A DNA stretch of 61,586 nucleotides, taken from Candidatus Accumulibacter phosphatis. GTDB taxonomy: Bacteria; Pseudomonadota; Gammaproteobacteria; Burkholderiales; Rhodocyclaceae. The first letter of the stretch is position 1. Each line of letters opens with the position of its first letter. Of the stretch, positions 3,350 to 58,293 are shown piece by piece. The stretch is from NCBI RefSeq assembly GCF_012939955.1, contig NZ_SPMY01000008.1:1-61586 (forward strand). Direction: 5' to 3'. Made by a program: the position numbers and the translations under genes. Below the pieces are notes generated by a model. That model searched no databases. It was not told the origin of the DNA and saw nothing but the letters and a program-made list of their open reading frames with translations.

Positions 3350-4072
3350 GGCATCACCTCAACCGACGCCGAACAAGGGGCCGCCACGGCCTTCGGCAGC
3401 AGCGCCACAATCGCCTCACGCAGCGCGCCCATATCCGCCTCCGGGCCAAGGATTTCGAGCGTACTGAATGTCGGCTCGCTCCTGCGCTCGCCAATTTTAG
3501 CCGAGCGTACCCCCTTGGCGCGTAGCGCTTCGAGCCGCACCCTGGCGGCCTCCTCGCCGCGATAGGTTCCCAGGGAAATAGCCAGCGGGCGGGAGCCACT
3601 GCTCGGCACAATGAAATAATCCTTTACGCCGAGCTCTTGCAACTCGGCCACTTTCCTAACCGCTTCCTCCCTGTTGACAAGCGGTGGGATGAAGACCCAA
3701 TAGCCAGTGATCTCGCCAACGCTACGACGTTTCCCCTTGAACGCTGAAAATCGTTCCGACAGCAGGTGCTCGACCTGATCGGCATCGCTAGCGGCCAGCT
3801 TGCTCCATAGCTGGCAGCTCTCGACGGGCGGCTTCTTGTCGCTCTCGCTGTCGACCACTTTTTTCGACTACTCTTTCGACCACTTTCTCAGCTTCCGTTT
3901 TCTTCTTCGCGGTCGGCGGTGGCTCGCCACGCGAAACGATACGCACACGCTCTGGCAGCAGTTGCTGTGCAAGGCGCCTCGCATCAGGGTTGACCGACGC
4001 ACCCAGGTAACCCTGCGTCCATACGAACAACAGCAGGTTGACGAGCAGCAGCAGGAAAACGGTGATTCGCAT
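3346..4072 (-). CDS. Membrane-anchored SPOR-domain protein, interrupted by a +1 frameshift
   Basis: Two overlapping frames form one gene. The first (from 4072) gives a single N-terminal membrane helix (VFLLLLVNLLLFVWTQGY) and a Glu/Lys-rich linker. The second (to 3346) gives a SPOR domain, with GYWVFIPP and LAISLGTYRGEEAARVRLEAL as typical strands and helices. The switch falls in a run of six T (plus strand 3859-3864). Deleting one base joins VERVVEKVVDSESDKKPP and gives a product of about 241 residues. SPOR domains bind denuded septal peptidoglycan, so a periplasmic envelope or division role is likely. It is probably an intact gene with a base-calling error. It precedes coaE and follows the TrpB2-like gene by eight bases. 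Confidence 0.75.
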
Positions 4073-4080
4073 CGAGGCGC

Positions 4081-5445
4081 TTATCCGACCTTGGGCAAGT
4101 GTTCGAGTGAAGCCCGGATGGCTTCAGCGGGGTAATCGAAATCATCGAGCTCAGCGGCGAAATAGCGGTCGTAAGCAGCCATGTCGAAGTGCCCGTGGCC
4201 GGTGAGATTGACAAAGATCGTTGTCGCTTCGCCGGTCAGTTTACAGCGCAAAGCCTCGTCGATCGCCGCTCGCAGCGCGTGATTCGACTCCGGGGCGGGA
4301 ATGATCCCCTCGGCGCGAGCAAACATCACGCCGGCTTCAAAGGTGGCGAGCTGCGAGACCGCAACTGCCTCGATCAAGCCTTCGTGATAGAGCTGCGAAA
4401 CCAGCGGCGAATCACCATGGTAACGCAATCCGCCGGCATGGATTCCTGGGGGCATGAAGTCATGCCCGAGGGTGTACATTTTCATCAACGGCGTGAAGCC
4501 GGAGGCATCGCCAAAGTCGTAGGCGTAGGCACCGCGCGTCAAGCTCGGGCAGGAAGTCGGCTCGACGGCCACCAGCCGTGTCGGGCGACCGTTTCGGCCA
4601 CCGGCGGCGTTGTCGGCGATGAACGGAAAGGCGACGCCGGCAAACGATGATCCGCCCCCACAAGGCGCAAAAATGACGTCCGGCCAATCACCGACCTTAG
4701 CGAACTGCTTCTTGGCTTCCTGACCGATGATCGTCTGATGAAGCGCCACGTGATTGAGGACCGAGCCGAGCGCATAACTGGTATCCGCGCGCCCAGCCGC
4801 CTCTTCGACGGCCTCGGAAATGGCAATTCCGAGCGAACCCTGGCTGTCGGGATCTCTGGCCAGCAGATCGCGCCCGCTCTGCGTCATCGGCGAAGGGCTG
4901 GCAAACACCTCGGCGCCCCAGGTCTGCATCATCGAACGCCGGAAGGGTTTTTGCTGGTAGCTGATCTTGACCATGTAGACCCGCACGTCAAGGCCAAACA
5001 TCTGGCCGGCGAAGGCCATCGAGCAACCCCATTGGCCGGCACCGGTCTCGGTGGTGATCCGTTTGATGCCTGCCTGCTGGTTGTAGAAGGCCTGCGGTAC
5101 GGCGGTATTGGGCTTGTGCGAACCGGCCGGGGAAACCCCCTCGTACTTGTAGTAAATCCGGGCCGGTGTGCCGAGTACTTCTTCGAGTCGACGAGCGCGA
5201 ATCAAGGGCGACGGACGCCACAGGCGGTAAATTTCGCGGACCGGCTCGGGAATCGGAATCCAGCGCTCGCTCGACATTTCCTGCTCGATGATCGCCGCCG
5301 GAAAGATCGCCCCCATCTGCTCCGGTGAAACCGGCTGGCCGTCCGCGGCAAGCGGCGGCAGCGGCGGTGTCGGCAGGTCGGCGACCACGTTATACCAGTG
5401 CGTCGGAATTTCGGACTGATCGAGAGTAATGTGCAGCGCGTCCAC
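4081..5445 (-). CDS. TrpB2-type tryptophan synthase beta-like protein
   Basis: A PLP-dependent fold-type II enzyme of 454 residues, longer than TrpB1 (401 residues at 21.2 kb). It has the TrpB2 hallmarks: an extended N-terminus, [16 protein letters not shown], the PLP lysine in [10 protein letters not shown] (about K111), the TETGAGQWG motif, and the phosphate-binding loop [10 protein letters not shown]. It ends in [12 protein letters not shown]. TrpB2 proteins convert indole and serine to tryptophan, often without a TrpA partner; the physiological role here is inference. It is not next to trpA and is followed by the SPOR gene at an eight-base gap. Confidence 0.88.
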
Positions 5446-5545
5446 GAAACTTCCCCTTATTTTTCTTGTTCAGCGAATCCGCGAAGTATACCCCGGGATA
5501 CCCTGGCCATCCGCTTCAGCGACGGGCGTGGACACAAGCGCGGCG

Positions 5546-6034
5546 TCAAGGGCCGGGCGTGAAGTTGGTACTGGTCCTGGTAACCACTCCATCATTGTTG
5601 AAATGGACGTTGAAATACCAGGTCATTCCCCCTTCGACCTTGGTTTTCCAGTCCCATACTTTTTCTTGTTTGAGTGAAAAATAGAGCTCGTGCGCCGGTC
5701 GGCCGAGCAGGTAACGCACCTCGTCGCTGCTCATGCCCGGCCGGACCTTGGCGAAGTTCTCCTCGGTCAGCACCTGCCGCACTTCGCGCAAGACCTTGTC
5801 CGGACCGATGACCAGCATGTAGTTGACGATGCCCTGGGGCGTACGCGGATACTCCCAGACCCGCGCACCGTCGGTTTCCACCCACTCCAGGCTTGGCTCG
5901 CCCATCAGTTGGCGCACTTCATCGGCGCTGGTGATGCCGGGCTTGAGCTTGCTCAGCTTGTCGGCGTCGCATGCCGAAAACGCAAGAGCGACCAGTCCGG
6001 AAAGAAAAACACCTAGCAAGCGTCTGATCGACAT
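5546..6034 (-). CDS. bamE: BamE/SmpA-like outer-membrane lipoprotein
   Basis: A small lipoprotein of 162 residues. A signal peptide ends in the lipobox LAFSAC, so Cys is lipidated about 21 residues in. Two SmpA/OmlA-type repeats follow: KLKPGITSADEVRQLMGEP and VRPGMSSDEVRYLLGRP. Each is followed by an aromatic-rich strand (WEYPRTPQGIVNYMLVIG; MTWYFNVHFNNDG). In E. coli, BamE is a non-essential subunit of the BAM complex for outer-membrane protein assembly. The double repeat makes it longer than E. coli BamE (113 residues), so it could be a paralogue of the family rather than the BAM subunit itself. Confidence 0.75.
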   Translation of the reverse strand: MSIRRLLGVFLSGLVALAFSACDADKLSKLKPGITSADEVRQLMGEPSLEWVETDGARVWEYPRTPQGIVNYMLVIGPDKVLREVRQVLTEENFAKVRPGMSSDEVRYLLGRPAHELYFSLKQEKVWDWKTKVEGGMTWYFNVHFNNDGVVTRTSTNFTPGP

Positions 6035-6265: not shown

Positions 6266-7552
6266 TTGAACACCGCCCCGCGTGGCTACCCACCCGCCTC
6301 CCTCGCCTGGAGTGTCTGGGGGCTGGGCGCTCTGCTCTATCTGATCGGTTTCTACCAGCGCGTCGCGCCGGCGGTAATGACCGACCAGCTGATGATCGAC
6401 TTCTCGATCGGGGCCACCGAACTCGGCAATCTCTCGGCCTTCTATTTCTACTCCTATGTGGTGATGCAGATCCCGACCGGGATCATCGCTGATCGTTGGG
6501 GACCGCGCCGTCTGCTGGCCGCGGGCGCGCTGGTCGCGGCCATCGGCAGCGCGCTGTTCGCCAGCGCCCCTGATCTGTGGTGGGCGAATAGTGGACGTCT
6601 GCTGATCGGCGCCTCGGTCGCCGTCGCCTTCGTCTCGATGCTCAAGCTCGCCAGCCATTGGTTTGCACCGCAGCAATTTGCCCTTGCCTCCGGACTGGCT
6701 CTGGTTTTTGGCGTCGTCGGCGGGGTGATCGCCGGCGTCCCTCTGCGCATGCTGATCGAAGCCTGGGGCTGGCGCTCGGTGATGGGTGTCACGGCAGCGC
6801 TGACCGCGCTGCTGGCAGTCGCCATCTGGCTGCGCGTGCGCGACGACCCCGTCGACTGCGCTTTTGACAGCCATGCGCATTCCGCGCACGGCAGCGGGCA
6901 CCGCGGCTCGATCCTGCGCGGCATGGCCGAAGTCCTCTCCTACCGCAACACCTGGATTCTGCTGATCACCCCGATCGGCATTGCCGGATCGGTACTTACC
7001 TTTGCCGGCCTGTGGGGTGTGCCCTATCTGCGCCAGGTACACGGCCTCGACACCCACAGCGCCGCAGCGATCACCTCGCTCCTGTTGATCGCCTGGGCGG
7101 TCGGCGGACCCGTCCTCGGTACCCTCTCCCAACGCATGGGCCGCCGGCGACCGCTCTATGTCTGGACCACCGCCGCGGCGCTCGCCGGCTGGCTGGTGGT
7201 CATTTTCGCGCCGCTACCAATCTGGTTGCTGATCGTCACCTTGCTGTTCACCGGCCTGGTCTCTGGCAACCTGATCATCGGCTTCGCTTTCGCCAAGGAA
7301 TCGGTGCCGGCCCGCCTGATGGGCACCGCTTCGGGAATCTGCAACATGGGACCGCTACTCGGCGGCATGTTGCTGCAACCGGCCGTCGGCTGGGTACTCG
7401 ACGACAACTGGCTGGGTGCCACGGCAGCTGGCGTCCGCCTTTACGACGCCACCGCTTATCAGGCCGGATTCAGCCTGATGGCCGGCTGCCTGGTCATTTC
7501 ACTCTGCCTGATCCCGTTTGCCAAGGAAACCGCTTGCCAACAGAGCAAATAA
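6266..7552 (+). CDS. MFS transporter, TTG start
   Basis: A twelve-helix major facilitator of 428 residues in the inner membrane. Motif A is seen as GIIADRWGPRRLLAAG, and a repeated form as GTLSQRMGRRRPLYVW in the second half. A His-rich cytoplasmic loop (DSHAHSAHGSGHRG) lies between the halves. The start is TTG at 6266 with a good AGGAG five bases upstream; no ATG or GTG fits better. It resembles the nitrate/sugar-phosphate-type MFS subgroup, but the substrate is unknown. It is convergent with the Bcr/CflA-like gene, and the last 59 bases of the two frames overlap because of a palindromic insertion (7550-7712). Confidence 0.85.
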   Translation: MNTAPRGYPPASLAWSVWGLGALLYLIGFYQRVAPAVMTDQLMIDFSIGATELGNLSAFYFYSYVVMQIPTGIIADRWGPRRLLAAGALVAAIGSALFASAPDLWWANSGRLLIGASVAVAFVSMLKLASHWFAPQQFALASGLALVFGVVGGVIAGVPLRMLIEAWGWRSVMGVTAALTALLAVAIWLRVRDDPVDCAFDSHAHSAHGSGHRGSILRGMAEVLSYRNTWILLITPIGIAGSVLTFAGLWGVPYLRQVHGLDTHSAAAITSLLLIAWAVGGPVLGTLSQRMGRRRPLYVWTTAAALAGWLVVIFAPLPIWLLIVTLLFTGLVSGNLIIGFAFAKESVPARLMGTASGICNMGPLLGGMLLQPAVGWVLDDNWLGATAAGVRLYDATAYQAGFSLMAGCLVISLCLIPFAKETACQQSK

Positions 7553-8915
7553 GGCGATTGCCGGAAAAGAACGTACCAAATTGCGCCGGATTTTCGGTCG
7601 TCTTCAAGGCGCGACAACCGGCGCATAGTCGAACTATGTAACTGTTGTCGCAACACCGAAGACGGGCGAAAAGACAAGCAAGATGGTAGGTTGTTTTATA
7701 GAAATCGCCTAAGACCTCGCCGATGCTTGGCCAATAATGGGTGGCAGTGGCCGCAGCGCCGAGCAAGCTCAGGCCCGCCATGCCGAGCGCCAGGCTCAGC
7801 GTCGATTCGCACAGCACAGGCACAATCAGCGCGGCAGCGAGCACATTGACCGCGGCCTGCACGAATGCCTGGCAGGAGGCGGCAAGGCCGCGCTGGTCCG
7901 GAAACATGTCCAAGGCGAGCAGGGTCAGGCTGGGGATTTGCAATGACATGCCAAGGGTGAAAACGAACAGCGGCAAGACACTCCACGGCAGCGCCACTAC
8001 GCTGCCCAGATTCAAGCCCAGGTTAAGGGTCGCCGCAACCCCCATTATCAGGTAGCCGGCGATAATCGTCCGGGCGCGAGAACAGCGCTTGGCGAGCGCG
8101 CGGGACAAGCACGCGCCAAGCACCAGACCGCCCATCGCCGGCCCGAAAAGCCACAGGAAACCGGTCTCCGAAACCCCCAGGTGGCGGACCAGGAAAACCG
8201 GTGCCGACAACACGTAGATGAAGAAAGCGGCGAAGTTGAAGGCCAGCGCGCCGCAGATCAGCAGAAAGGATGGTGAGCCGAGCACGCCACAGTAGGCCTT
8301 TGCCAGATAGTCGACGTGCAGCGACTGGCGCCGGTGCACGGGCAGCGTTTCCGGGAGGAACTTCCAGCAGGCCAGCCATAGGGCAACGCTAAGCAAGACC
8401 AGCAGCGCAAACACCGCACGCCAGCCAAACCAGGTTTGTAGCCAACCGCCGAGCACCGGTGCGATCACCGACGCCGCCGCAAACATGATCATGATCTGCG
8501 CAATCAGTCGCTGCGCGCGCGCGCCGTGGTAGAGATCCCCCACGATCGCCCGACTGACGACCATGCCGACACCAGCGGTCATCCCCTGCACGACGCGCAG
8601 CAGCCACAGCTGTTCAATGCGTGTGGCGAAAATGCAGCCCAGCGAGGCCAGCGCAAAAAGTGCCACAGCCACAAGAATTACCCGGCGACGGCCGTGCGCA
8701 TCAGAGATCGGGCCATGCCACAGGGTCATTAGTGCAAAGGGCAGCAAGAAAGCCACCAGGGTCTGCTGGACTTCCTGCGGCGTCGCCAGCAGCGACCGGG
8801 AAATGTCCCCGAACGACGGCAGGTAGGTGTCGATCGAGAAGGGACCAAGCGTGGCCAGAGCGGCCAGGACCGATCCGATGCCGCGTTGAGCGGGCAAAGT
8901 TTCAGAATCAAGCAC
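7494..8915 (-). CDS. Bcr/CflA-family drug-resistance MFS transporter with aberrant C-terminal tail
   Basis: An inner-membrane drug:proton antiporter of the Bcr/CflA type. Hallmarks are LGPFSIDTYLPSFGDISRSL at the N-terminus, motif A as GPISDAHGRRRVILVA and motif C as GVGMVVSRAIVGDLY. The family fold ends near residue 400 (HYWPSIGEVLGDF). The last 70 or so residues (YKTTYHLACLFARLRCCDN onward) come from translation of a palindromic repeat and then antisense to the end of the neighbouring MFS gene. The natural stop was probably lost when the repeat inserted. Whether the tailed protein is functional is unknown. The gene begins one base downstream of the comM stop. Confidence 0.85.
   Translation of the reverse strand: MLDSETLPAQRGIGSVLAALATLGPFSIDTYLPSFGDISRSLLATPQEVQQTLVAFLLPFALMTLWHGPISDAHGRRRVILVAVALFALASLGCIFATRIEQLWLLRVVQGMTAGVGMVVSRAIVGDLYHGARAQRLIAQIMIMFAAASVIAPVLGGWLQTWFGWRAVFALLVLLSVALWLACWKFLPETLPVHRRQSLHVDYLAKAYCGVLGSPSFLLICGALAFNFAAFFIYVLSAPVFLVRHLGVSETGFLWLFGPAMGGLVLGACLSRALAKRCSRARTIIAGYLIMGVAATLNLGLNLGSVVALPWSVLPLFVFTLGMSLQIPSLTLLALDMFPDQRGLAASCQAFVQAAVNVLAAALIVPVLCESTLSLALGMAGLSLLGAAATATHYWPSIGEVLGDFYKTTYHLACLFARLRCCDNSYIVRLCAGCRALKTTENPAQFGTFFSGNRLICSVGKRFPWQTGSGRVK
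7550..7712. repeat. Palindromic MITE/REP-like element between convergent MFS genes
   Basis: The segment starts with AAGGCGATTGCC and ends with GAAATCGCCTAAG, so AGGCGATT is inverted at the two ends. Inside there are nested inverted repeats: GCGACAAC with GTTGTCGC, CATAG-TTCGA-CTATG at the tip, and GTCTTC with GAAGAC outside. Together they could fold into a long hairpin. The Bcr/CflA-like frame reads straight through it, giving a Cys-rich tail unlike the family. This fits a small non-autonomous element that inserted at the 3' end of that gene; no coding potential of its own is seen. Confidence 0.6.
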
Positions 8916-8916
8916 G

Positions 8917-10839: not shown

Positions 10840-10856
10840 ATGCGCCTATAGGCGCT

Positions 10857-11105: not shown

Positions 11106-11513
<408 letters not shown>

Positions 11514-13047: not shown

Positions 13048-13082
13048 CGGGCGCCCACGTGGCGCCCGCTTTTTTTTTTTTT
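13048..13082 (+). terminator. Rho-independent terminator after amtB
   Basis: CGGGCGCC-CACGT-GGCGCCCG forms a perfect eight-base-pair GC stem, followed by a tract of more than ten T. It lies about 30 bases after the amtB stop. Confidence 0.92.
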
Positions 13083-14232: not shown

Positions 14233-15444
14233 ATCGACGCCAAACCGCTTTCGAGGTCGTTCTGCAGGTCGACGACGGCTTCGAGACCGACGGCAATGCG
14301 CAGCAGATCCTCGCTGACGCCCGCCGCAGCACGCTGCTCCGGTGTGAGACGACCGTGTGTCGTTGAGGCGGGATGAGTGAGCGTCGTTTTGGTATCGCCG
14401 AGATTGGCGGTAATCGACAGCAAACGACAGCTATCGACCACCTTCCAGGCTTCCTGACGCGCCCCCTTGACGGTGAAGGAAACGATCGCCCCACCGCTTT
14501 TCTGCTGCCGACAAGCCAGGTCGAACTGCGGATGCGAAGGCAGGCCAGGATAGTAGACACGCGCCACCCGGGGGGTGCTGCTCTAGCCACTGCGCGAGTT
14601 GCAGCGCCTTCGCCGACTGTGCGTGCATGCGAATCTGTAGCGTCTCCATGCCTTTCAGAAGTACCCAGGCGTTGAACGCGGAGAGCGTCGGGCCAGCGGT
14701 GCGCAGAAACCTGAACACCTCGTCGGTCAGTCTTTTCGGCCCGGCGACGGCGCCACCGAGTACCCGGCCCTGGCCGTCGAGGTATTTGGTCGCCGAATGC
14801 AGCACCAGATCGGCACCGAGATCGAGCGGCCGCTGCAGAATCGGTGTGCAAAAGCAATTATCGACGACCACCAGAATGCCGCGCGCGTGCGCGATGGCGA
14901 CCAGCGCGGCGATATCGGCGATGGCGGTCAGCGGATTCGACGGCGTTTCGAGAAACAGGAGCCTGGTTTCTGGCCGCAGCGCTGCTTCCCAGGCCGCGAT
15001 ATCGGTCTGCGAGACAAAGCTGGTCTGAATCCCGAAGCGTGGCATGAGAGTGCCGAGCATCTGTTGCGTCGCGCCAAACAAGCCCGTCGAAGCGACGATA
15101 TGGTCGCCGCTGCTGCACAGCGCCATCACCAGCGAGAGAATTGCCGACATTCCCGATGCCGTGGCCACACAAGCCTCGGCGCCTTCGAGCGCCGCGAGAC
15201 GGTCCTGAAATGCCGTCACCGTCGGATTCGTAAAACGCGAGTAGACGTTCCCTTCTTCCTCACCCGAAAAGCGAGCGGCTGCCTGAGCGGCGCTGTCGAA
15301 GACAAAACTCGAGGTCAGATACAGCGCCTCGCTATGCTCGTTGAACTGGCTGCGTTCCTGACCGGCGCGCACCGCCAGCGTCTCCAGGGAATAGCTGCGA
15401 GGGGCGTCGATTGTTTCCATTGCTTGCATTGCCTTTATCTTCAA
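14229..15444 (-). CDS. metZ: O-succinylhomoserine sulfhydrylase, interrupted by a +1 frameshift
   Basis: A PLP-dependent Cys/Met-metabolism enzyme that makes homocysteine from O-succinylhomoserine and sulfide. Visible features are EGNVYSRFTNPTVTAFQDRLAALEG near the N-terminus, the PLP lysine in LHSATKYLDGQGRVLGG, and the substrate part ITANLGDTKTTLTHPASTTH in the second frame. The frame switch is in a run of six G on the plus strand (14570-14575). Deleting one base joins LEQHPRVARVYYPGLPSHP and gives 404 residues, the family length. Its ATG overlaps the purF stop (ATGA). The cvpA-purF-metZ order is conserved in betaproteobacteria and pseudomonads. Confidence 0.93.
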
Positions 15445-41752: not shown

Positions 41753-42037
41753 AAGCGTGCTCCACCTCGGCCTTCAGTTTCTGGCTGGCATGAAAAGTGA
41801 CCACGCGTCGCGCAGTGATCGGGATTTCTTCGCCAGTTTTTGGGTTGCGGCCTGGCCGCTGCGGTTTGTCGCGCAATTGGAAATTGCCGAATCCGGAGAG
41901 CTTCACGCCATCCCCCCCGTTCCAGCGCATTGCGGATCTCTTCGAAAAAAAGCCTCCACCATGTCCTTGGCCTCGCGCTTGTTCAGGCCGACCTTCTCGA
42001 ACAGAAATTCGGCCAGCTCTGCTTTGGTAAGCGTCAT
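41733..42037 (-). CDS. ihfA: Integration host factor subunit alpha, with two +1 frameshifts
   Basis: The start [30 protein letters not shown] is followed by frame breaks in a run of seven A (41945-41951) and a run of seven C (41911-41917) on the plus strand. Removing one base at each restores the [20 protein letters not shown] junction and a 100-residue protein. It contains the DNA-intercalating arm [17 protein letters not shown] bends DNA and supports sigma-54 promoters among others. GGGAGG lies just upstream of ATG. It is almost certainly intact in the organism. Confidence 0.93.
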
Positions 42038-42049: not shown

Positions 42050-44426
42050 TCAGACCCGAAGCTGCGCCGCGAATGTCGTTTGCAGATAGCCCACCAGATG
42101 CTGCATGGCGGCCTCGACTTCGACTTCCTGTAATGTTTTTCGAGTATCTTGCATCATTATTCGGAAGGCAAGGCTTTTCTTGCCAGCCTCGACCCCAGGC
42201 CCGACATAGACGTCGAACAGATTGATTTCACGAACAATTTCCGAACGACTGGCGATCATGCCGTCGATCAAGGGCTGCAAATCCAGTTTCTGATCGACCA
42301 CGATAGCCATATCACGTATGACCGGTGGTTGCCGCGAGACCTCCGTGTATTGCGGCAGGCTGGCCATGACTATAGCATCCAGATCGACTTCGAAAACGAC
42401 CGGCGCCAACGGCAGTTCGTATTTCTGCTGCCACTGCGGATGCAACTCGCCGACGAAGCCAATGGCCTGGCCATCGACGACGACGCGTGCACTGCGCCCG
42501 GGATGCAGGGCCGGATGCTGCGCCGCCTCGAAGTGGGCAATGCGCGGTGCGAGCAAGCGCTCAAGATCGCCCTTGATGTCGAAGAAATCGACCTTGCGTG
42601 CGGCACAGCCCCACTGCTCGGGAAAAGCACTGCCGTAAGCCAGTGCCGTGAGTTTCCACGGCTGTCGAAAGCCGGCCACCGGTTCGCCCTGGGCGTCGCG
42701 GAAAAAACATCGCCCGGTCTCGAAAAAACGAGCCCGCGCCTGTCGCCGCTTGAGGTTGCTGGCAACGTTGGCGACGAGACCGCCGATCAAGGTCGAGCGC
42801 ATGACGCTCAGCTGACTGGCAATCGGGTTGGCCAGGCGAATCAGTTTGCTGTTGTCGGCAAAATCACGCTCCCATGCCTCTTCGACGAAAGCGAAGTTGA
42901 CCACCTCCTGATAGCCACAATCGGCAACGATCTGGCGCACACGCGCCAGGGGTCGTGCCTGCTCGGTCTGTGGCAACATCGCCAGCAAGCCCGTCGGCGA
43001 TGTCGCCGGGATGTTCTCATAGCCGTGCAGGCGCGCCAGCTCTTCGATCAGGTCTTCCTCGATCTCGATGTCGAAGCGGTAGCTCGGCGGGGTGACGATG
43101 AAGTCGTCGGCTTGCCTGCGAAATGGCAGCGCGAGACGCGAAAAAAAGGGCGCTGATTTGTTCGCCGTCGAGTGCTACGCCAAGCACCTTGGCGACGCGC
43201 GCCGGGCGCAGGCGAACCTCGTGGCGCTCGGGCAGGGTCGCCAACGCTTCACTCACCGGCCCGGCCTGACCACCGCAAATATCGAGGACCAGACGCGTCG
43301 CGCGTTCGAGCGCGCGCCGCGTGCCGCCGAAATCGACGCCGCGCTCGAAACGATGTGAGGCGTCGGAAACAAAGCTGTAACGACGCGCGCGACCGGCGAT
43401 CGCCGTCGGCGCAAAGAAAGCCGACTCGAGGAATAACTCGCTGGTGGCCAGGCTGATGCCGCTTTCCTCGCCACCCATCACGCCGCCCATCGCCAGCGGC
43501 CGCTGCTCATCGGCGATCAGCAGCACATCGTCCTGCAGCTCCAGGGTCTGCTCGTTGAGCAGGGTGATCTTTTCGCCCGCAAGCGCCATGCGCGCGTGAA
43601 TGGCGCCGTGCAGGCGGCTGTTGTCAAAAGCGTGCAGTGGCTGGCCGAGTTCGAGCATCACGTAGTTGGTGATATCGACCACGGCGGAAATCGGCCGAAT
43701 ACCGCTGCGCTCGAGGCGGCGACTCATCCAGGTCGGGGTCGGCGCCGCAGCGTCGACGCCGGTGATCACCCGCCCGCAGTAGCGTGGGCAAGCTTCCGGG
43801 GCATCGAGAACAATGGCCCGTGCAGTGGCGATGGACACCTCGACAGCATCGACCGGCGTAAATCGCGCCAGCGTTCCGGTCAGTGCGGCGACCTCGCGGG
43901 CGACACCTTCCAGCGACAGGCAGTCGGCCCTATTCGGCGTCAGCTTGAGGGTCAACAAGCGGTCATCGAGATCGAGATGGTGACGAATATCCTCGCCCAC
44001 CGGCGCATCGCTGCTCAGCAAGAGCAAGCCGGCGGCGTCTTCGGCGATGCCGAGTTCCTTGGCCGAGCAGAGCATGCCTGCCGAGGCCACGCCACGCACC
44101 CTGGCGACCTTGATCGTGAAGCCGCCCGGCAGTTCGGCACCGGGAAGCGCGCACGGCACCTTGATCCCGGCAGCCGCGTTCGGCGCCCCGCAAACGATCT
44201 GCAGCGTTTCGCCCGAACCGATATCGACACGGCAGACATTGAGGCGATCGGCATCAGGATGCTTTTCGACTGCGAGCACCTGCGCGACGAGCACCTTGTC
44301 GAAGGCCGGAGCGACCGCTTCCTCCTCCTCCACTTCGAGACCAGCCATGGTCAACAGATGCGAAAATTCGCTACCCGAACAAACCGGGTCGACGAAACTA
44401 CGAAGCCAGGATTCTGAAAATTTCAT
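42050..44426 (-). CDS. pheT: Phenylalanyl-tRNA synthetase beta subunit, interrupted by a +1 frameshift
   Basis: The first frame has the start [17 protein letters not shown], the EMAP-like tRNA-binding domain ([19 protein letters not shown]) and the B3/B4 editing region. The second frame continues with [13 protein letters not shown] and the catalytic-like and FDX-ACB domains, ending in [14 protein letters not shown]. The break is in seven A on the plus strand (43142-43148). Deleting one base restores [18 protein letters not shown] and 791 residues. It pairs with PheS; the enzyme charges tRNA-Phe. Confidence 0.95.
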
Positions 44427-44479: not shown

Positions 44480-45529
<1,050 letters not shown>

Positions 45530-45535
45530 TCACCG

Positions 45536-45562
45536 AAAAAAAAGGAGGCTAGCGCCTCCTTT
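45536..45562 (-). terminator. Intrinsic terminator/attenuator between rplT and pheS
   Basis: On the minus strand AAAGGAGGC-GCTA-GCCTCCTTT forms a perfect nine-base-pair stem followed by eight T. It ends nine bases before the pheS ATG. The stem contains AAGGAGG, the only good Shine-Dalgarno-like sequence near pheS. No Phe-rich leader peptide is seen in the 40 bases between rplT and the hairpin. Confidence 0.9.
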
Positions 45563-45950: not shown

Positions 45951-46149
45951 TCAAGCGTAAGGCATCATGGAACGAACCATGGCCTTGTCAGCTGCATGAA
46001 CTTCGGTCGTCCCGCGCAACTGGCGCTTGGTCTTGGTGTCTTTCTTGGTCAGAATGTGACGCTTGAACGCCTGCGCGCGCTTGATGCGGCCGCTGGCGCT
46101 GACCGTGAAGCGTTTTTTTTGCTCCACTCTTGGTCTTCATTTTGGGCAT
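45951..46149 (-). CDS. rpmI: 50S ribosomal protein L35, interrupted by a +1 frameshift
   Basis: Reads [12 protein letters not shown] and then, after removing one base from a run of eight T on the plus strand (46113-46120), [20 protein letters not shown], and [20 protein letters not shown]. The protein is 65 residues with the normal L35 ending (MVRSMMPYA). It lies between infC and rplT as expected. Since L35 is a core ribosomal protein, the break is best explained as a base-calling error. Confidence 0.93.
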
Positions 46150-46819: not shown

Positions 46820-48738
46820 TTAAGCCGTACCACTTCGCGCGGCCACTTCATCCAGAAGTTGCCCAGTCAGAGCCTCGATCGACATTTGTCCGAGATCCCG
46901 ACCTCCGCGTGTGCGCACGGCCACCAGGTTCGCTGCCATTTCCTTGTCGCCAACGACGATCTGGTAGGGCAGCTTGTTCAAGCTATGTTCTCGTATTTTT
47001 ATAGGTAATTTTTTTCGTTGCGCAAATCCGCCTCGACGCGCAGGCCGGCATTGCGCAGCGTCGCCGCCACCTGTTCAGCGTACGCGCCCTGCTTCTCCGA
47101 AATATTGAGCACCACCGCCTGCGTCGGCGACAGCCACAATGGCATTGCACCAGCATAATTCTCGATGAGAATGCCGATGAAACGTTCCAGCGAACCGAGG
47201 ATTGCCCGATGCAGCATCACCGGGACATGCCGATCGTTGTCCTCGCCGACATAATGCGCATTGAGGCGCTCGGGCAAGGCAAAATCGAGCTGCAGGGTGC
47301 CGCACTGCCAGACACGACCAAGGCAATCCTTCAGCGAGAACTCGATCTTCGGGCCATAGAAAGCGCCCTCGCCCGGCTGCACCTCGAAGCTCCGACCCTT
47401 GGCCTTCAGCCCTTCGCCAAGGGCGGCCTCGGCGCGGTCCCACTGGGCGTCGGAACCAATACGCTTTTCTGGACGCGTCGATAGCTTGACGATGATGTCG
47501 GTGAACCCGAAATCGGCATAGACCTTCTCCAAAAGGTCGATGAAGGCTTCCGTCTCGGGCAGCACCTGCGCTTCCGTACAAAAAATGTGCGCGTCATCCT
47601 GCACGAAAGCGCGTACGCGCATGATGCCGTGCAAAGCCCCTGAGGGCTCGTTGCGGTGACAGGAACCGAACTCGGCCAGACGCAAAGGCAGGTCCCGGTA
47701 GCTGCGCAAGCCCTGATTGAAGATCTGGATATGCCCGGGGCAATTCATCGGCTTGACCGCGTAATCGCGATTTTCGGAAGCGGTGGTGAACATGTGCTCG
47801 GCGTAGTTGTCCCAATGCCCCGAGCGCTCCCATAAGGAGCGATCCATGATCATCGGCGTCTTCACTTCGCAATAGCCGTGCCGGCCGAGCAAACGACGCA
47901 TGTACTGCTCAACTTCCTGCCAGATCGTCCAGCCCTTGGGATGCCAGAAAACCATTCCTGGTGACTCTTCCTGGAGGTGAAACAGGTCAAGTTGCCGACC
48001 GAGCTTGCGGTGGTCGCGCTTCTCGGCCTCTTCGAGCATATGCAGATACGCTTCCTGGTCCTCTTTCCTGGCCCACGCCGTACCGTAGATGCGCTGCAGC
48101 TGTTCGTTGCGATGATCACCGCGCCAGTAGGCACCCGCCAGCTTCATCAGCTTGAACACTTTCAGCTTGCCGGTGGACGGCACGTGCGGCCCGCGACAGA
48201 GGTCGACGAAATCGCCTTCGCGATAGAGCGATACCTCCTGCCCCTCGGGGATGGCCTCGATCAGCTCGGCCTTGTAGCGCTCGCCGATGGACTGGAAGAA
48301 AGCCACCGCCGCTGCGCGCTCCCAGACCTCCCGCTCGACCGGGATATCGCGCTTGGCGAGCTCGCCCATGCGCTTTTCGATGGCCGCCAGATCGTCGTTG
48401 GTAAACGGGCGCTGGTAGGCAAAGTCGTAGTAGAAACCGTTTTCGATGACCGGCCCGATGGTCACCTGCGCCTCCGGAAAAAGCTCCTTGACCGCGTAGG
48501 CCATCAGATGTGCGGCCGAGTGGCGAATCACCTCCAGGCCCTCGGGATCCTTCTCGGTGATGATGCCCAGCTGCACGTCGCCGACAATCAGGAACGAGGT
48601 GTCAACCAGACGCCCGTCGACCTTGCCGGCAAGCGCGGCGCGTGCCAGACCGGCGCCGATACTCTGCGCGACTTCGGCAACCGTCAGCGGCTGTGCGAAC
48701 TCTCTTTGCGAACCGTCAGGCAGTGTAACAACCGGCAT
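46820..48738 (-). CDS. thrS: Threonyl-tRNA synthetase, with two +1 frameshifts near the 3' end
   Basis: Starts [14 protein letters not shown] (TGS domain). The editing domain and class II core are intact ([32 protein letters not shown]). As written, the frame stops at 46999 after LRNEKNYL. Removing one base from a T run at 47009-47015 and one from 46996-47000 continues [20 protein letters not shown] through the anticodon-binding domain to TAA at 46820, 638 residues in all. The frame also extends 18 codons upstream of the chosen ATG, without family support. It is an essential enzyme, so it is probably intact. Confidence 0.95.
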
Positions 48739-51716: not shown

Positions 51717-51757
51717 ACAGACTCTGAGGCGACCCCAAGTAACAAGTAAGAACGCAG

Positions 51758-51773
51758 ATGACAGAAATGTCAT
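51758..51773. promoter_or_regulatory. CusR/CopR-type copper-response palindrome
   Basis: ATGACA-GAAA-TGTCAT is a perfect six-base palindrome with a four-base spacer, the layout of the E. coli CusR box core (TGACA-N4-TGTCA). It lies about 95 bases upstream of the first gene of the copper cluster. No copper two-component system is in the window, so the regulator would be encoded elsewhere. Confidence 0.6.
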
Positions 51774-51866
51774 TCCCGTGACAGCTTGCCGTCGGTATTG
51801 ATCATCGATACTCGTAAACGTAATGCATTGCCAACGACGAACCGCTAACCAAACCGAGGAATGGCC

Positions 51867-52205
51867 ATGAAAACTCTGCCCCGCAAGATTCTGATGATCG
51901 CCTTGTCCGCTGCGCTGAGCGCACCGCTTGCCTTGCTGGCTGCCGAAAAAGCAACGCCGGCAGACTCGATGCACGACCAGATGCAGACCAGGATGCAGGC
52001 CATGCAGGCGCGTATGCAAGCCATGCAACAGACGGAAGGCGCAGCACGCATGCCGATGATGGCGGCACAAATGGACGACATGCAAGCGATGATGAAAGAC
52101 TTCGGCGCAGGCTGTCCGATGGGCGGCGGCCAGGGCAACATGGGTATGCCGGGGCAGAAAGGGATGCCGATGATGCCCGGCATGCACGGCAGTCAAGCGA
52201 AATAG
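51867..52205 (+). CDS. Met-rich periplasmic protein of the copper cluster
   Basis: 112 residues from ATG (MKTLPRKILMIALSAALSAPLALLA). A signal peptide is cleaved near LLAAEKA. The mature part is a Met/Gln-rich helix (MHDQMQTRMQAMQARMQAMQQ, MAAQMDDMQAMMKDFG) and a Met/Gly tail (GQGNMGMPGQKGMPMMPGMHG). There is no enzyme motif. Many Met and His residues suggest Cu(I) binding; this is inference from composition and neighbours. GAGGA-like pairing precedes the start. Confidence 0.75.
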   Translation: MKTLPRKILMIALSAALSAPLALLAAEKATPADSMHDQMQTRMQAMQARMQAMQQTEGAARMPMMAAQMDDMQAMMKDFGAGCPMGGGQGNMGMPGQKGMPMMPGMHGSQAK

Positions 52206-52220
52206 ATCCAAGGAAGTCAC

Positions 52221-52370
52221 ATGATGCCCTGGCTGAAACGACTCCTGGACAGCTTTCGTGAATGGCGGAAAGCCAACGCAGAAGCGCATGCCAGGTCGAC
52301 ACCACACTCCTGCTGCTCGGCACCACCACCGGGGGCTGGCAGCCACCACGACCATCAAGGAAAAGCATAA
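52221..52370 (+). CDS. 49-residue Cys/His peptide, unknown function
   Basis: MMPWLKRLLDSFREWRKANA, then EAHARSTPHSCCSAPPPGAG and SHHDHQGKA. AAGGA lies seven bases before ATG. The TAA is directly followed by the GTG start of the cytochrome c gene, so translation is probably coupled. The adjacent CC pair and the HHDH cluster could bind a metal ion. There is no signal peptide; the amphipathic N-terminus could lie on the membrane surface. Its position between two exported copper-cluster proteins suggests a role there, but nothing is proven. Confidence 0.6.
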   Translation: MMPWLKRLLDSFREWRKANAEAHARSTPHSCCSAPPPGAGSHHDHQGKA

Positions 52371-52808
52371 GTGAGCAAGACCTTCAGTCGAGCGAGCGCG
52401 ATTTCCGCAAACCATCGCCACAGCCACCTACAGCTTTGCCTGCTCGCGCTGTTCATCGTAGCGGCGGCAATCAGCCTGCCCGTCGCGGCGCAAAGCATCC
52501 AGGTGCCACAACCGAGCCCCGGGCTGATGCCCAACCCGGCAGCAGGCAAGGCCCTCTTCGAGAAAAGCTGCGCGTCCTGCCACGGCGCCAGTCTGCAAGG
52601 CAGCGACAAGGGGCCACCGATGCTAAGCAAAATTTACGAACCCTCGCATCACGGTGACGCCGCATTCCAGCTGGCGGTAAAAAGCGGCTCGCGTGCGCAC
52701 CACTGGAAGTTCGGCGACATGGCGCCGGTTCCCGGCCTGACCCCGGACGACGTCGCACAGATCACCGCCTATGTGCGGCTCGAGCAGCGCAAGGCAGGCA
52801 TTCAATAA
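52371..52808 (+). CDS. Periplasmic c-type cytochrome
   Basis: 145 residues from GTG. A signal peptide (LQLCLLALFIVAAAISLPVAAQ) precedes one heme motif, CASCH at residues 67-71. The heme Met ligand is probably in FGDMAPVPGLT, and the end DVAQITAYVRLEQR is typical of cytochrome c class I. In copper clusters such small cytochromes may pass electrons to or from the multicopper oxidase; this is inference. It is adjacent to the Cys/His peptide gene. Confidence 0.9.
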   Translation: MSKTFSRASAISANHRHSHLQLCLLALFIVAAAISLPVAAQSIQVPQPSPGLMPNPAAGKALFEKSCASCHGASLQGSDKGPPMLSKIYEPSHHGDAAFQLAVKSGSRAHHWKFGDMAPVPGLTPDDVAQITAYVRLEQRKAGIQ

Positions 52809-53058
52809 GGCCATCCGCCGTCGTTGCAGGCCAAGCCGGATGTGTTGACCACTCGCTCCAGGGCCTCATCAATCGACAAGTACAGGCAATCAGACACGCA
52901 ATCACAATTGTCGGCTTCAAAGCGACGCCGGCAGCGCCGACTGACCGGGCTTTAAAACCGCTGGTTTCGTGGTCTCGTAGTGGTGCGCTTATCGTCACGA
53001 CCGCGCTGCTTCGCCACCGTGGACAGCTACGCCATTTCTGCTTGGAGACCATTGCAAA

Positions 53059-54897
53059 ATGAGGAATCGTTTACCGTTCTCGCTCGCCGTTCCACACCCG
53101 CCGCGGCGGCGATTCGTTCAGGGGCTTGTGGCCGGTGGTGTCCTGGCGAGCCTGCCGTCCTTCGTTGGCACCGCTCTGGCGGCTGTCGGCCAGGGCTCGG
53201 CAACTGCAGCGCCGGTGCTGTCGGGAGAAAGTATCGATCTTGTAATCGCCGAGACTGCGGTGAACTTCACCGGCACGCCGCGCATGGCGACGACCATCAA
53301 CGGTTCGATCCCCGCGCCCACCTTGCGTTTGCGCGAAGGTGATGCAGTCACCATCCGGGTCACCAACCGGCTGCCGGTAGCGACCTCGATCCATTGGCAT
53401 GGCATCATCCTGCCCTACCAGATGGACGGCGTTCCCGGGATCAGTTTTGCCGGCATCGCGCCGGGCGAAACCTTCACCTATCGCTTCCGTATCGAGCAGA
53501 GCGGCACCTACTGGTACCACTCGCACTCCGGCATGCAGGAAATTACCGGCATGTACGGCACGATCATCATCGAGCCGCGTGACGGGGAAACGATCCGCGC
53601 CGACCGCGACTTTGTGGTGCAGTTGTCCGACTGGACCGATCAGGATCCGATGCAGGTGTTCGCCAAGCTCAAGACCCAGAGCGATTACTACAACTACCAC
53701 CAACCGACTGCGGTCCAGTTTTTCCGTGACGCCTCGCGCGAGGGCCTGCAAGCGGCAATCAGCAAGCGCCAGATGTGGAACGAAATGCGCATGAGCCCGA
53801 CCGACCTGGCCGATTTGTCGGCGGCAACGCTCACCTATCTGATGAACGGAACGACGCCGGCCGGTAACTGGACCGGCCTGTTCCGCCCCGGCGAGCGCCT
53901 GCGCTTGCGCTTCGTCAACGGCGCCGGCAACAGCTTCTACGATGTGCGTATCCCCGGCCTCAAGATGACCGTGGTGCAGGCGGATGGCGTGGATATTGAG
54001 CCGGTGAGCGTCGACGAATTTCGCTTCGGCCCAGGCGAAACCTACGATGTGATCGTCGAGCCGAAGGACGAGGCCTACACCATCTTCGCCCAGTCGATGG
54101 ATCGCAGCGGCTATGCGCGCGGGACGCTGGCCGTGCGTGACGGACTGAGTCCGGCGGTGCCCGAGCTGGATGCCGTGGAGCAGTTGTCGATGTCCGACAT
54201 GATGGGTGCGATGGGCGGCGGAATGGCCAGTGGCAGCATGGCCGGCATGGACCATGGGGCAATGGCAGGCATGGCAGGCATGGATCACGGGAAGATGGCC
54301 GGAATGAACCACGGCGCGATGGCCATGGATCACAGTAAGCACGGCATGCCGATGGGCGGGCTGGCGACTGCCAGCCAGATCGTGCGCCATGCTCGTACTG
54401 AATACGGCCCGAGCACCGACATGCGGGTGGACATGCCGCGAACCAATCTCGACGACCCCGGCGTCGGCCTGCGCAACAACGGCCGCAAGGTACTCACGCT
54501 CGCCGACCTGTCGACCATCGGCGGGCCGATGGACCCACGCGGGGCCGAGCGCGAGATCGAGCTCCACCTGACCGGCAACATGGAGCGTTACGCCTGGTCG
54601 GTCGACGGCCTCGAGTTTGGCCAATCCACCCCGGTGCATTTCAACTACGGCGAACGCCTGCGGGTCATCCTGCACAACGACACGATGATGACCCACCCGA
54701 TGCACTTGCACGGCATGTGGAGCGAACTCGAATCACCAGACGGCCAATTCCAGGCGCGCCGGCACACGATTCCGGTACAGCCTGCACAGCGCTTGAGTTT
54801 CCTGGTCACGGCCGACGCGCTCGGTCGCTGGGCTTGGCACTGCCACCTCCTGTTCCACATGGACGCGGGCATGTTCCGCGAGGTGGTGGTGACATGA
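53059..54897 (+). CDS. copA: CopA-type multicopper oxidase
   Basis: 612 residues. A Tat signal (PPRRRFVQGLVAGGVLASLP) indicates export after folding. All four copper-ligand motifs are present: SIHWHGIILP, TYWYHSHSGMQE, HPMHLHGMW and WHCHLLFHMDAGMF. Between domains lies a Met/His repeat block (MAGMDHGAMAGM, MAGMDHGKMAGMNHGAMAMDH). The CopA/PcoA family oxidises Cu(I) in the periplasm and confers copper tolerance. Its stop overlaps an ATG (54894) in the next gene's frame. The 250 bases before it show no clear promoter. Confidence 0.95.
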   Translation: MRNRLPFSLAVPHPPRRRFVQGLVAGGVLASLPSFVGTALAAVGQGSATAAPVLSGESIDLVIAETAVNFTGTPRMATTINGSIPAPTLRLREGDAVTIRVTNRLPVATSIHWHGIILPYQMDGVPGISFAGIAPGETFTYRFRIEQSGTYWYHSHSGMQEITGMYGTIIIEPRDGETIRADRDFVVQLSDWTDQDPMQVFAKLKTQSDYYNYHQPTAVQFFRDASREGLQAAISKRQMWNEMRMSPTDLADLSAATLTYLMNGTTPAGNWTGLFRPGERLRLRFVNGAGNSFYDVRIPGLKMTVVQADGVDIEPVSVDEFRFGPGETYDVIVEPKDEAYTIFAQSMDRSGYARGTLAVRDGLSPAVPELDAVEQLSMSDMMGAMGGGMASGSMAGMDHGAMAGMAGMDHGKMAGMNHGAMAMDHSKHGMPMGGLATASQIVRHARTEYGPSTDMRVDMPRTNLDDPGVGLRNNGRKVLTLADLSTIGGPMDPRGAEREIELHLTGNMERYAWSVDGLEFGQSTPVHFNYGERLRVILHNDTMMTHPMHLHGMWSELESPDGQFQARRHTIPVQPAQRLSFLVTADALGRWAWHCHLLFHMDAGMFREVVVT

Positions 54898-54923
54898 GCG
54901 CTTCAATCAAAAGGGAGAACACG

Positions 54924-56120
54924 ATGCGGAAATTCAGCGCGCTGGCTCTGGGCATCGCCTTGTCGGGCGCCACTACCGCGTGGGCGCAATCAGCGCAGGC
55001 GGCGGACGAACACGCGGGACATCATGGCGCGCCGTCACCGGCGCCCGTCGCTGCACCAGCGATGCCAATGTCCGGAATGACGCACGAGCACATGGCAACT
55101 GGTGCAAAGCCCGATGCCGGGGATGGCATGAAGAAGGCGATGCCGGGCGCCGCTGCTGCCGATGATATGTCAGGCATGGCGGGCATGGACCACGGCGACA
55201 TGAAAATGCAGGGTGGCACCCGTCCCGCTGCGACGCCAGCGATGCCGATGGATGGAATGAACCACGAAGCGATGAAAACTGGCGCCATGCCAGATGCCGA
55301 CGGCGGCATGACGAAGACTCCTCCAGCCGCCGCTGCCGGCGACATGGTAGGTATGGACCATGGCGACATGAAGATGCAGGGTGGCAGCGCGCCCGCCGAC
55401 ACCCGCGACCCAAACGCGTACTCGGACGGCTATACGCTCGACACGGGGAAATATGCACTCCCCGGGCCGGAGCGCTTGCGCCTGGCGGACGAGCATAGTT
55501 TCGGTGCCGTGCTCTTCGATCGCCTGGAGCGTGTGTATGGCAACGACGGTAATGGCACCTCCTACGACGCACAGGCCTGGTTCGGCCGCAACTACAATCG
55601 TCTGGTGGTCAAGGCGGAGGGTGAATACGCCAACAGCAAGCTCGAAGACGCCCGTACCGAAGTCCTATGGGGGCACGCCATCGCCAGCTACTGGGACACA
55701 CAGCTCGGTGTGCGCTTCGATTCGGGAGAAGGACCCAATCGGACCTGGGCCGCCTTCGGCGTACAAGGGCTCGCCCCCTACTGGTTCGAGCTTGACGCGA
55801 CTGCCTACGTGGGCAATGAAGGACGTACGGCACTGCGCCTGAGCGCCGAGTACGAGCTGTTGCTCACGCAGCGCCTGGTCCTGCAGCCGCGCATTGAGAT
55901 CAATGCTTACGGCAAGGATGATGTCGCCCGTGGCATCGGCAGTGGTGTCTCCGACGCCGTTGCCGGCCTACGCCTGCGTTATGAGATTTCCCGCCAGTTT
56001 GCACCCTACGTCGGCGTCGAATGGGCCGGCAAATACGGCCGAACCGCTGACCTGGCCAAGGACGAGGGCACACGAACCAGCGATACCCTGTGGGTTGCCG
56101 GCCTGCGCTTCTGGTTTTGA
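54924..56120 (+). CDS. copB: CopB-type outer-membrane copper-resistance protein
   Basis: 398 residues from the ATG preceded by AGGGAG (MRKFSALALGIALSGATTAWAQ); a second possible start is at 54894, overlapping the copA stop. After the signal peptide come about 120 residues with repeated MxGMDHGDMKM-type units. The CopB/PcoB beta-barrel domain follows (RLADEHSFGAVLFDRLERVYGNDG ... YDAQAWFGRNYNRLVVKAEGE ... LWVAGLRFWF, ending in aromatic F). It is thought to bind or export copper at the outer membrane. The repeats echo those in CopA. Confidence 0.93.
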   Translation: MRKFSALALGIALSGATTAWAQSAQAADEHAGHHGAPSPAPVAAPAMPMSGMTHEHMATGAKPDAGDGMKKAMPGAAAADDMSGMAGMDHGDMKMQGGTRPAATPAMPMDGMNHEAMKTGAMPDADGGMTKTPPAAAAGDMVGMDHGDMKMQGGSAPADTRDPNAYSDGYTLDTGKYALPGPERLRLADEHSFGAVLFDRLERVYGNDGNGTSYDAQAWFGRNYNRLVVKAEGEYANSKLEDARTEVLWGHAIASYWDTQLGVRFDSGEGPNRTWAAFGVQGLAPYWFELDATAYVGNEGRTALRLSAEYELLLTQRLVLQPRIEINAYGKDDVARGIGSGVSDAVAGLRLRYEISRQFAPYVGVEWAGKYGRTADLAKDEGTRTSDTLWVAGLRFWF

Positions 56121-56188
56121 CAAGGACGCAGGAGCCCGCGATTGATTTGCCCACTTACCGCAATTGAAGACAACGACCAGAGAGATCA

Positions 56189-56674
56189 ATGACCATGAAG
56201 AAACCAAGCATCCTCCTTTTCCTGAGCCTTGCATCCGCCGCGGCGATGGCCGCTGGCGACCACCAGGGCGGCCATGCGATGCATGGTGACCAGCACGCGA
56301 GCACGGTCGGCGTCCCCGGGAAAGCGGCTGACGTTACGCGTACCATCGACGTGAACATGGACGACTCGATGCGCTTCGTTCCGGATCACGTCACGGTCAA
56401 GGCCGGCGAGACCGTCCGCTTCTTCCTCAAGAACCGCGGCAAGGTGCCGCATGAAATGGTCATCGGATCAATGGCCGAGCTCAAGGAGCACGCTGAAATG
56501 ATGCGCAAGTTTCCCAGCATGGAACACGAAGAGCCCAACATGATCACCCTCAAGCCGGGTCAGCGCGGCGGCCTGATCTGGAAATTTGACCGACCCGGCA
56601 GCGTCGATTTCGCTTGCCTCATTCCAGGTCATATGGAAGCCGGCATGGTCGCCAAGGTGACGGTAAGCAAGTAA
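56189..56674 (+). CDS. Cupredoxin-domain copper protein
   Basis: 161 residues. The signal peptide ends AAAMAAGDH, followed by a His/Met-rich stretch (HQGGHAMHGDQH) and a cupredoxin fold: FVPDHVTVKAGETVRFFLKNRGKVPHEM, and the copper loop FACLIPGHMEAGM (Cys, His, Met). The VPHEM His completes a type I or related site. It resembles the CopI/azurin-like proteins found with copA-copB in betaproteobacteria. It lies 68 bases after copB. Confidence 0.88.
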   Translation: MTMKKPSILLFLSLASAAAMAAGDHQGGHAMHGDQHASTVGVPGKAADVTRTIDVNMDDSMRFVPDHVTVKAGETVRFFLKNRGKVPHEMVIGSMAELKEHAEMMRKFPSMEHEEPNMITLKPGQRGGLIWKFDRPGSVDFACLIPGHMEAGMVAKVTVSK

Positions 56675-56689
56675 GCTCGAGCCAGCTCG

Positions 56690-57090
56690 GTGGCCATTGA
56701 TCCTTCGAGTGCCCCGGCCAGTCGCTTGCGCTCGAAGGCCAGTGCTCTGTGTACCATGTTCTGAAGGATGGTGTCTCCGGGCAGGACGATCCGTTCCCTG
56801 CACAGCAGATCCACCAACTCGTGCAGGATATAGACCGGCCGACTGGCGATGTGCAGCATGCGCCTCGACGTGGCGCTTGCGGGCATGGTCCGAGACCGTG
56901 AGGTCGGCGACCGCCTTGTTGTCGAAGTAGCGCCGGCGCAGATAGTCGACGTCGTCGCGCACAGCCGGCAGTTCGAAGCGGAAGGAGTGCTGGCGAGCAC
57001 GGAAGTAGCCTAGATGCAGCAGAAAGTGGATCTTGGTGTGGACCGAGCGGCGTTGATCGAGGGCCTCGAGCTCCGGTGCCGTCAGCGTAA
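56690..57090 (-). pseudogene. Tn3-family transposase fragment (DUF4158 region)
   Basis: The minus strand reads LTAPELEALDQRRSVHTKIH, then FLLHLGYFRARQHSFRFELP and AVRDDVDYLRRRYFDNKAVA, as in the N-terminal DUF4158 domain of Tn3-type TnpA. After a frame change near 56855 it reads RMLHIASRPVYILHELVDLL and ALAFERKRLAGALEG. Both ends are missing. It abuts the 3' end of the cupredoxin gene. Confidence 0.78.
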
Positions 57091-57203
57091 AAAAAACAAC
57101 GGCTTACAGTTTCTGTTTCTTGTGGAGGTAAAGAATTGGACGTACAGCGTCAGCCGTTTCCCGAGTGAGGCGTTAAGTCGCCATTACACACGAACGGAAG
57201 ACA

Positions 57204-58293
57204 ATGAGTTTTTCAGTAGCGATTGCCAGTTCCGGCGTGTACGTCAACAGCACGCCGATTGCGCAGGAGAAGCAGCGACAGCAATTCATTACTGCCCTGC
57301 GGGCCGTGGCTGCGATTGTCATTCTCTGGCACCACTTCGCACTCTATCCGCCCTTGCGGCAATGGGCGGCACCGCTGCTTGGCGATATGCTCGATTGGCT
57401 GGAATTCAACGCTCGGGCGACGCAGGTTTTTTTTCGTGGTGGGCGGCTACGTCATGGCGCTCAGCATGAGCCGGCAGAACTGGAACCTGAGAAGCATGCG
57501 TTCGTTCGTCGTCCAGCGCTACCTTCGGCTCGTCATCCCCTATCTCGGCGCCATTGCGCTGGCGGTTTCGAGTTACCTTGTCGCGCGCGGCTGGTTGCCC
57601 GATTCCGTGGTCGGAGAACCCGTCTCTTTGCCGCAACTCCTCGCGCACCTGTTCTTTCTGCAGGACATTCTGGGTTACGAGCAATTGTCGGCCGGCCTCT
57701 GGTTCGTCTGCATCAACTTCCAGCTTGGCCTCGTCTACGCTGCCGGATTGTTGCTACGCGACACGCTCGCCCGGGACAAAGCTCCGTTCGTTGGTCTCCT
57801 CGGCTGGCTGTTGGCGGCCTTTTCGCTGTTTTACTTCAACCTGAACGAAGCCTGGGATCACTGGTGGCTCTACTTCTTCCCCTATTTCTTCATGGGTATC
57901 GTCATCCAGCGCGCGGTGCACGTCGGCAGAAGCAGTCGGGAATTCTGGTTCTATCAACTACTGTTCGTCGCTGCCATGGTGTTCGAATGGCGCTGGCGCC
58001 TTTTGAGCGCGTCCGTCGTTGGCTTCCTCGTGTTCAGTTCGCTACGCTCGGGGTGGGGGCAGCACTGGCCCCACAGCCGTACGATCAGCTGGATCGGCAA
58101 TGCTTCTTACAGCCTTTTTCTCGTCCATTTCCCGGTTTTGGTGATCGTCGCCACCGTGTGGACCCGGATGGACTGGACGACGCCTGCCGGGGCAGTAGTC
58201 GGCCTGGTGCTGGCGTTTGCTCTGAGCCTACTGACCGCCGGCCTGTTCCATCGCTGGATCGAACGTCCGGCGGGGCGACTCGGCCGCAGGTAG
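57204..58293 (+). CDS. Acyltransferase 3 family membrane protein, interrupted by a +1 frameshift
   Basis: The first frame has the family start RQQFITALRAVAAIVILWHHFALYPP with the catalytic His. The second frame continues VVGGYVMALSMSR and about nine more membrane helices. It ends SWIGNASYSLFLVHFPVLVI and FHRWIERPAGRLGRR. The break is in eight T at 57427-57434; deleting one gives 362 residues. OafA/Acyltransferase 3 proteins acylate surface polysaccharides or lipids. It is flanked by Tn3-type fragments, so it was probably acquired. Confidence 0.88.

Follow-up and report, generated by a model that had tools for sequence, protein, structure and literature searches.

Homopolymer errors in long-read draft assemblies, as far as the available parts of two reports describe them (PMC12007338, PMC9262707), are single-base indels tied to runs of one base, which split conserved genes and are revealed by comparison with relatives; run errors of both signs occur (PMC9262707). 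Run mis-calls in 454 pyrosequencing data likewise leave frame-shifting indels in runs, to judge from the excerpts at hand (PMC3534400, PMC3568017 and others). A biological counterpart is described in the accessible portions of work on Blochmannia and Buchnera (PMC3017870, PMC5574713), where well-kept genes, some of them essential, carry one run indel and are proposed to be rescued; those runs are poly-A or poly-T, the genomes are AT-rich and reduced, and some shifts are common to species. Here we analyse a 61,586-bp stretch of Candidatus Accumulibacter phosphatis (hereafter the window), the entire contig C87 of genome G000, in which eleven homopolymer runs break the reading frames of conserved genes such as thrS, pheT, amtB and metZ. 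Unlike the endosymbiont shifts, these runs are 5-8 bases long, involve all four bases (G or C in four of the eleven), lie in a high-GC genome and recur in no covering relative; unlike 454 mis-calls, losses are nearly absent. Judging from the comparison with relatives, the eleven frame breaks are almost certainly errors of the consensus sequence, in which run length was over-estimated by one.

All eleven runs reported by the initial annotation were found in the window sequence, nine of them at the coordinates it gave and two displaced by one base (the first ihfA run, which it placed at 41911-41917, and the pheT run, at 43142-43148). Its claim that each run breaks a gene through one extra base was borne out as well. 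Syntenic stretches of ten relatives were aligned to the window, the reading-frame offset was followed along each and the net offset was recounted per site; with 1 to 11 relatives covering a run, depending on the site, the window has one base more than every one of them (at the SPOR-domain gene, a poorly aligned stretch versus the ten relatives, one base more modulo 3). The eleventh genome, G030, was found separately via the acyltransferase gene and is the closest relative: its alignment spans 53,523 bp (2,067 mismatches, 38 gaps), DNA identity being 94-96% across the greater part of the window and about 96% in the thrS-ihfA stretch, for which best matches in same-genus relatives reach 73-91%. 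G030 covers ten of the eleven runs (all but the one in the insertion sequence, IS) and is alone in covering the acyltransferase site, which none of the ten other relatives reaches. A comparison with a closely related genome, which the initial annotation had proposed as a check, thus turned out in its favour, as G030 is one base shorter at all ten covered runs. At the SPOR gene, where G030 lacks the T run, and at amtB, where its run is interrupted, this comparison shows that a base is extra, not which one.

Table. Runs that are one base longer in the window than in relatives, with their strand (a point marks non-genic sites) and the comparison at each (ORF, open reading frame; aa, amino acids).
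Feature	Run	Positions	Strand	Comparison with relatives
SPOR-domain gene	T6	3859..3864	-	frame break; offsets 28, 37, 40, 16 and 13, i.e. +1 modulo 3 in 5/5 relatives; one-base gap vs G030
amtB	C6	12140..12145	+	frame break; +1 vs 5/5 relatives, also vs G030
metZ (O-succinylhomoserine sulfhydrylase)	G6	14570..14575	-	frame break; +1 vs 3/3 relatives, also vs G030
ihfA, first run	C7	41912..41918	-	frame break; +1 vs 10/10 relatives and G030
ihfA, second run	A7	41945..41951	-	frame break; both ihfA runs together +2 vs 10/10 relatives; +1 vs G030
pheT	A7	43141..43147	-	frame break; +1 vs 10/10 relatives and G030
between pheS and rplT, non-genic	A8	45536..45543	.	one base longer than G030; absent from the initial annotation
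rpmI	T8	46113..46120	-	frame break; +1 vs 10/10 relatives and G030
thrS, near 3' end	T5	46996..47000	-	frame break; +1 vs G030
thrS, near 3' end	T7	47009..47015	-	frame break; +1 vs G030; both thrS runs together +2 vs 10/10 relatives
IS transposase	C6	50800..50805	-	frame break; +1 vs G001 (488-aa ORF), the only relative with a copy
upstream of acyltransferase, non-genic	A8	57089..57096	.	one base longer than G030; absent from the initial annotation
Acyl_transf_3 gene	T8	57427..57434	+	frame break; one-base gap vs G030

The sign of the differences is strongly skewed. Losses, which the initial annotation held would speak against over-calling if they were equally common, are rare: in window runs of at least five bases, there are 12 single-base gains and one single-base loss relative to G030 (two-sided sign test p = 0.003), the gains being those at SPOR, amtB, metZ, ihfA (two), pheT, rpmI, thrS (two), the acyltransferase and the non-genic runs at 45,536 and 57,089. 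Extra bases thus occur both within genes and outside them. At the first non-genic site, seven of the ten other relatives give an offset of +1 over 45,525-45,555, the remaining three giving +2, +3 and -13; at the second, G030 has no ORF of at least 60 aa across the run. The frequency of one-base gains also rises with the length of the run in G030, from 1/266 for runs of four and 1/50 for runs of five to 4/14 for six and 3/5 for seven, counting only runs with identical flanks, a filter that SPOR, amtB and 57,089 fail. Among the runs compared, a single run of six is one base shorter in the window, and a single run of seven is three bases shorter. In the interval 51,723-60,899 (9,177 bp), where window and G030 are 99.7% identical, only two gaps are found, both of them one-base gains in window runs (A8 and T8), beside 25 mismatches of which 17 are packed in a 341-bp patch (53,771-54,111). 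This 9.2-kb block carries a multicopper oxidase, CopB, the acyltransferase and most of an AcrB-type pump gene and matches contig C92 of G030; the operon beside it is 96% identical to G030 and matches a different G030 contig, and the block looks like one recently shared with G030.

The two AmtB halves cover profile positions 14-162 and 171-427 and the two MetZ halves 7-282 and 287-395, so that little of either profile is lost. In PheT the cut falls near position 431 of 798, the halves covering 1-431 and 497-798, and the ThrS match stops at 510 of 565 with the end lost. The two pieces of the IS transposase bear DUF772 and DDE domains, respectively, the Pfam SPOR domain lies on the downstream piece of its gene, and the acyltransferase corresponds to a 362-aa ORF in G030 that crosses the run site, the Pfam match in the window starting at the run. 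The name ihfA rests on the initial annotation, operon position and the relatives' 100-aa ORF rather than on a family search, and rpmI is likewise named from the initial annotation and operon position. Codon by codon against G030, no new stop was seen on either side of the break in any of seven genes. Pre-break differences are mostly synonymous in metZ and thrS, and after the break the counts of synonymous versus other codon differences are 22:5 in amtB, 33:11 in pheT, 5:3 in metZ, 1:1 in ihfA and 2:0 in rpmI. Only in amtB and pheT is constraint clearly kept up past the break; elsewhere differences are few, and SPOR is fast-evolving.

Such gains are rare among the relatives. In runs of at least five bases compared with G030, four other genomes pooled (G009, G001, G012 and G011) have 65 of 70 unchanged, with 3 gains and 2 losses, and the window, in the same comparison, has 59 of 68 unchanged, with 8 gains and 1 loss; G001, G012 and G011 compared with G009 show no gain, 1 loss, 1 other change and 59 unchanged. 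A strict rule for lineage-specific frame changes gave 13 in 149,450 bp of G000, 10 of them gains at runs of at least five bases and 3 of them losses outside such runs. Under the same rule the relatives yielded one change in 123,200 bp (G009), four in 114,660 bp (G001), three in 96,430 bp (G011) and none in 52,280 bp (G012) or 26,930 bp (G004), and these eight include one gain at a run of five and two losses at runs of six. The rule misses ihfA, pheT, rpmI, SPOR, the IS and the acyltransferase, where offsets of the relatives are mixed or split or too few relatives cover the site, and these sites were judged from the G030 alignment and the net-offset recount.

The same type of error appears on other contigs of the genome. 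Ten places outside the window follow the strict rule, nine of which were checked by protein (position 101,269 of C20 was left out). Five gains in runs split the protein matches of relatives, at C20 15,237, C20 104,994, C1 23,862 and C15 14,786 and 14,825 (A8 and A7 on C20, A6 on C1 and A6 twice on C15), which makes gains in runs five of the six protein-supported breaks outside the window. Three further places on C20, two gains in runs (101,115 and 113,705) and one loss (18,042), show no clean protein split. Compared with G030, four runs on C1 and C20 are one base longer in G000, two of them protein-supported. There is no counted gain on C40 (18,175 bp aligned) or C58 (5,764 bp), and stretches of C57, C10, C30, C50, C70 and C110, lacking an aligned relative among those fetched, are uninformative. 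Frame differences versus some relatives only, or in gappy stretches, were not counted, for example +1 versus G012 and G009 at C40 42,628-42,634. Run gains are thus present on at least four contigs of G000. The wording of the initial annotation, that breaks are always of one extra base and in homopolymers, holds for its eleven sites but is not strictly so across the genome, where a one-base loss outside any run splits a gene on C1. In the window itself, two extra bases at 19,537 and a difference of -2 in the IS are frame differences of another type.

The initial annotation's diagnosis of systematic over-calling is supported by the bias towards gains, their restriction to runs, their rise with run length, the involvement of all four bases, the presence of non-genic sites and the rarity of such changes in relatives, together with the lack of new stops in the seven genes compared, the recurrence of this kind of error on other contigs and the fact that no second copy of the thrS-ihfA operon is among the own-genome matches listed (six of nine). 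Run length would have been over-called by one in some stretches of the draft assembly, and the living cells would carry shorter runs and intact genes. Over-calls are patchy: seven of the nine counted fall inside 5.2 kb (41.9-47.0 kb; permutation p = 0.001), a span chosen post hoc, with 0.1% of 20,000 trials as clustered when over-calls were redealt within run-length classes. This clustering points to errors confined to certain parts of the assembly, perhaps those thinly covered or left unpolished, and local read depth or polishing would then probably lie behind the patchiness.

Several observations pull in the other direction. Post-break codon differences are not synonymous in the last part of thrS (0:2) and mostly not in SPOR (10:24), and the one single-base loss versus G030, at 6,165, falls at, or upstream of, the beginning of a transporter gene and was not counted as coding. 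Compared with the more distant G009, window runs of at least five bases show 3 gains, 2 losses, 1 other change and 23 unchanged, a weaker contrast, with most coding sites failing the flank filter at such distance. Run-length spectra of whole stretches, a blunt test, are not clearly shifted between G000 and the relatives; eight short contig pieces (L163, L174, L175, L177-L181) entered these spectra only. From 14.6 to 41.9 kb, 126 runs could be compared, seven of them at least six bases long, and not one is over-called. On other contigs, a one-base loss outside any run (C1 4,558) splits a gene versus four of four relatives, and C20 has a loss in a run versus G030 at 117,979. The nearly pure gains seen here are also unlike long-read drafts, in which losses outnumber gains in the table rows of PMC12007338 that are available; this mismatch leaves the verdict unchanged.

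Over-calling has to be weighed against genuine changes of the DNA. In a mismatch-repair-defective or decaying lineage, replication slippage could have added bases to the runs, and it is well established that slippage acts on runs and rises with their length, as counted here. We nevertheless consider this very unlikely: real mutations would break thrS, pheT, rpmI and ihfA together, with no further operon copy among the matches listed, and slippage should yield losses as well as gains, as opposed to the ratio of 12 to 1 seen versus G030. Decay would be at odds with the seven genes compared, which gained no new stops and which, for amtB and pheT, differ mostly synonymously after the break, and real mutation with two run gains being the only indels between sequences 99.7% identical. 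Genes of translation such as thrS and pheT are required by cells, so intact versions are very probably present in the organism. It could also be that the longer runs are real and tolerated, transcription slippage or ribosomal frameshifting restoring the frame, as has been proposed for insect endosymbionts. This is not without precedent: rescue at poly-A and poly-T tracts is described for Blochmannia and Buchnera (PMC3017870, in the part available). However, four of the eleven runs consist of G or C, whereas the insertions that transcription made inside runs of E. coli and Buchnera were found only in A/T, and deletions rarely started in runs, according to the excerpted PMC5574713; runs of 5-8 are also shorter than the Blochmannia tracts of at least 9 and up to 12 bases (PMC3017870, same part). 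Nor is any of the eleven longer runs common to a covering relative, and a genome of 5.0 Mb with about 60-62% GC in the analysed stretches does not resemble a reduced AT-rich symbiont. That such rescue explains the window is thus extremely improbable, and we give just as little credence to the broader idea of real longer runs with essential translation genes shifted by one base and a frame correction acting on G and C runs too.

The genome itself (5,044,133 bp on 149 contigs; 97% complete, with an estimated 5% contamination) is taken to be that of a Candidatus Accumulibacter-type sludge bacterium and is probably metagenome-assembled, and the two best listed matches of the window ThrS are from a Pseudomonadota draft genome (84%) and Candidatus Accumulibacter adjunctus (86%). 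The estimated contamination and the patchiness of the errors would be in keeping with a bin in which pieces were merged from strains with different run lengths. Yet mixing intact strains would give neither frame breaks absent from every covering relative nor a bias towards gains, and we regard a contaminated bin or strain mixture as a barely credible source of the breaks. Over-calling of run length, as an artefact, is ordinary as biology, and matters for the use of the genome: thrS, pheT, rpmI, ihfA, amtB, metZ and the others should not be scored as lost, and other frame breaks at runs in this assembly should be distrusted. Since no other genome stands for the species in the search set, its wrong gene calls could be passed on. 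Our literature search found no paper on homopolymer frameshifts in Accumulibacter with nanopore data, and, among the papers listed on Accumulibacter and homopolymers, none that by title and start of abstract looked to concern this genome.

Other differences in the window are of different kinds. At 18179-20398, a carboxyltransferase gene and the neighbouring Mur-ligase-type gene, which we take to be accD and folC, are joined as one open frame of 739 aa; two additional bases at 19,537, a position not in a long run, bring them into frame, and the two frames are separate in G030, G009, G001 and G011. The joined frame may be a true fusion or one more error. The IS shows, compared with G001, an additional difference of -2 near its start, at 51,651. 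A T6 run at 11,124-11,129 that appeared as a gain versus G001 and G009 was dropped, as the G030 alignment has no gap at this point. Close to the end of amtB, a T13 run (13070-13082) aligns with a run of 9 in G030 and of 7 in G009. Differences of ten bases from G030 are found at 5488, 34949, 44467 and 48958, and at the first two of these a 10-base unit has one more tandem copy, exact or nearly so, in G030. C20 (L166, 477-605) and C1 (L162, 10541-10667) carry a dispersed repeat of about 125 bp that is present dozens of times in G009 and in G011 and many times in G012. Finally, a segment of about 170 bp (7546-7722), located where two transporter genes converge at their ends, has many dispersed copies in G011 (77-94% identity).

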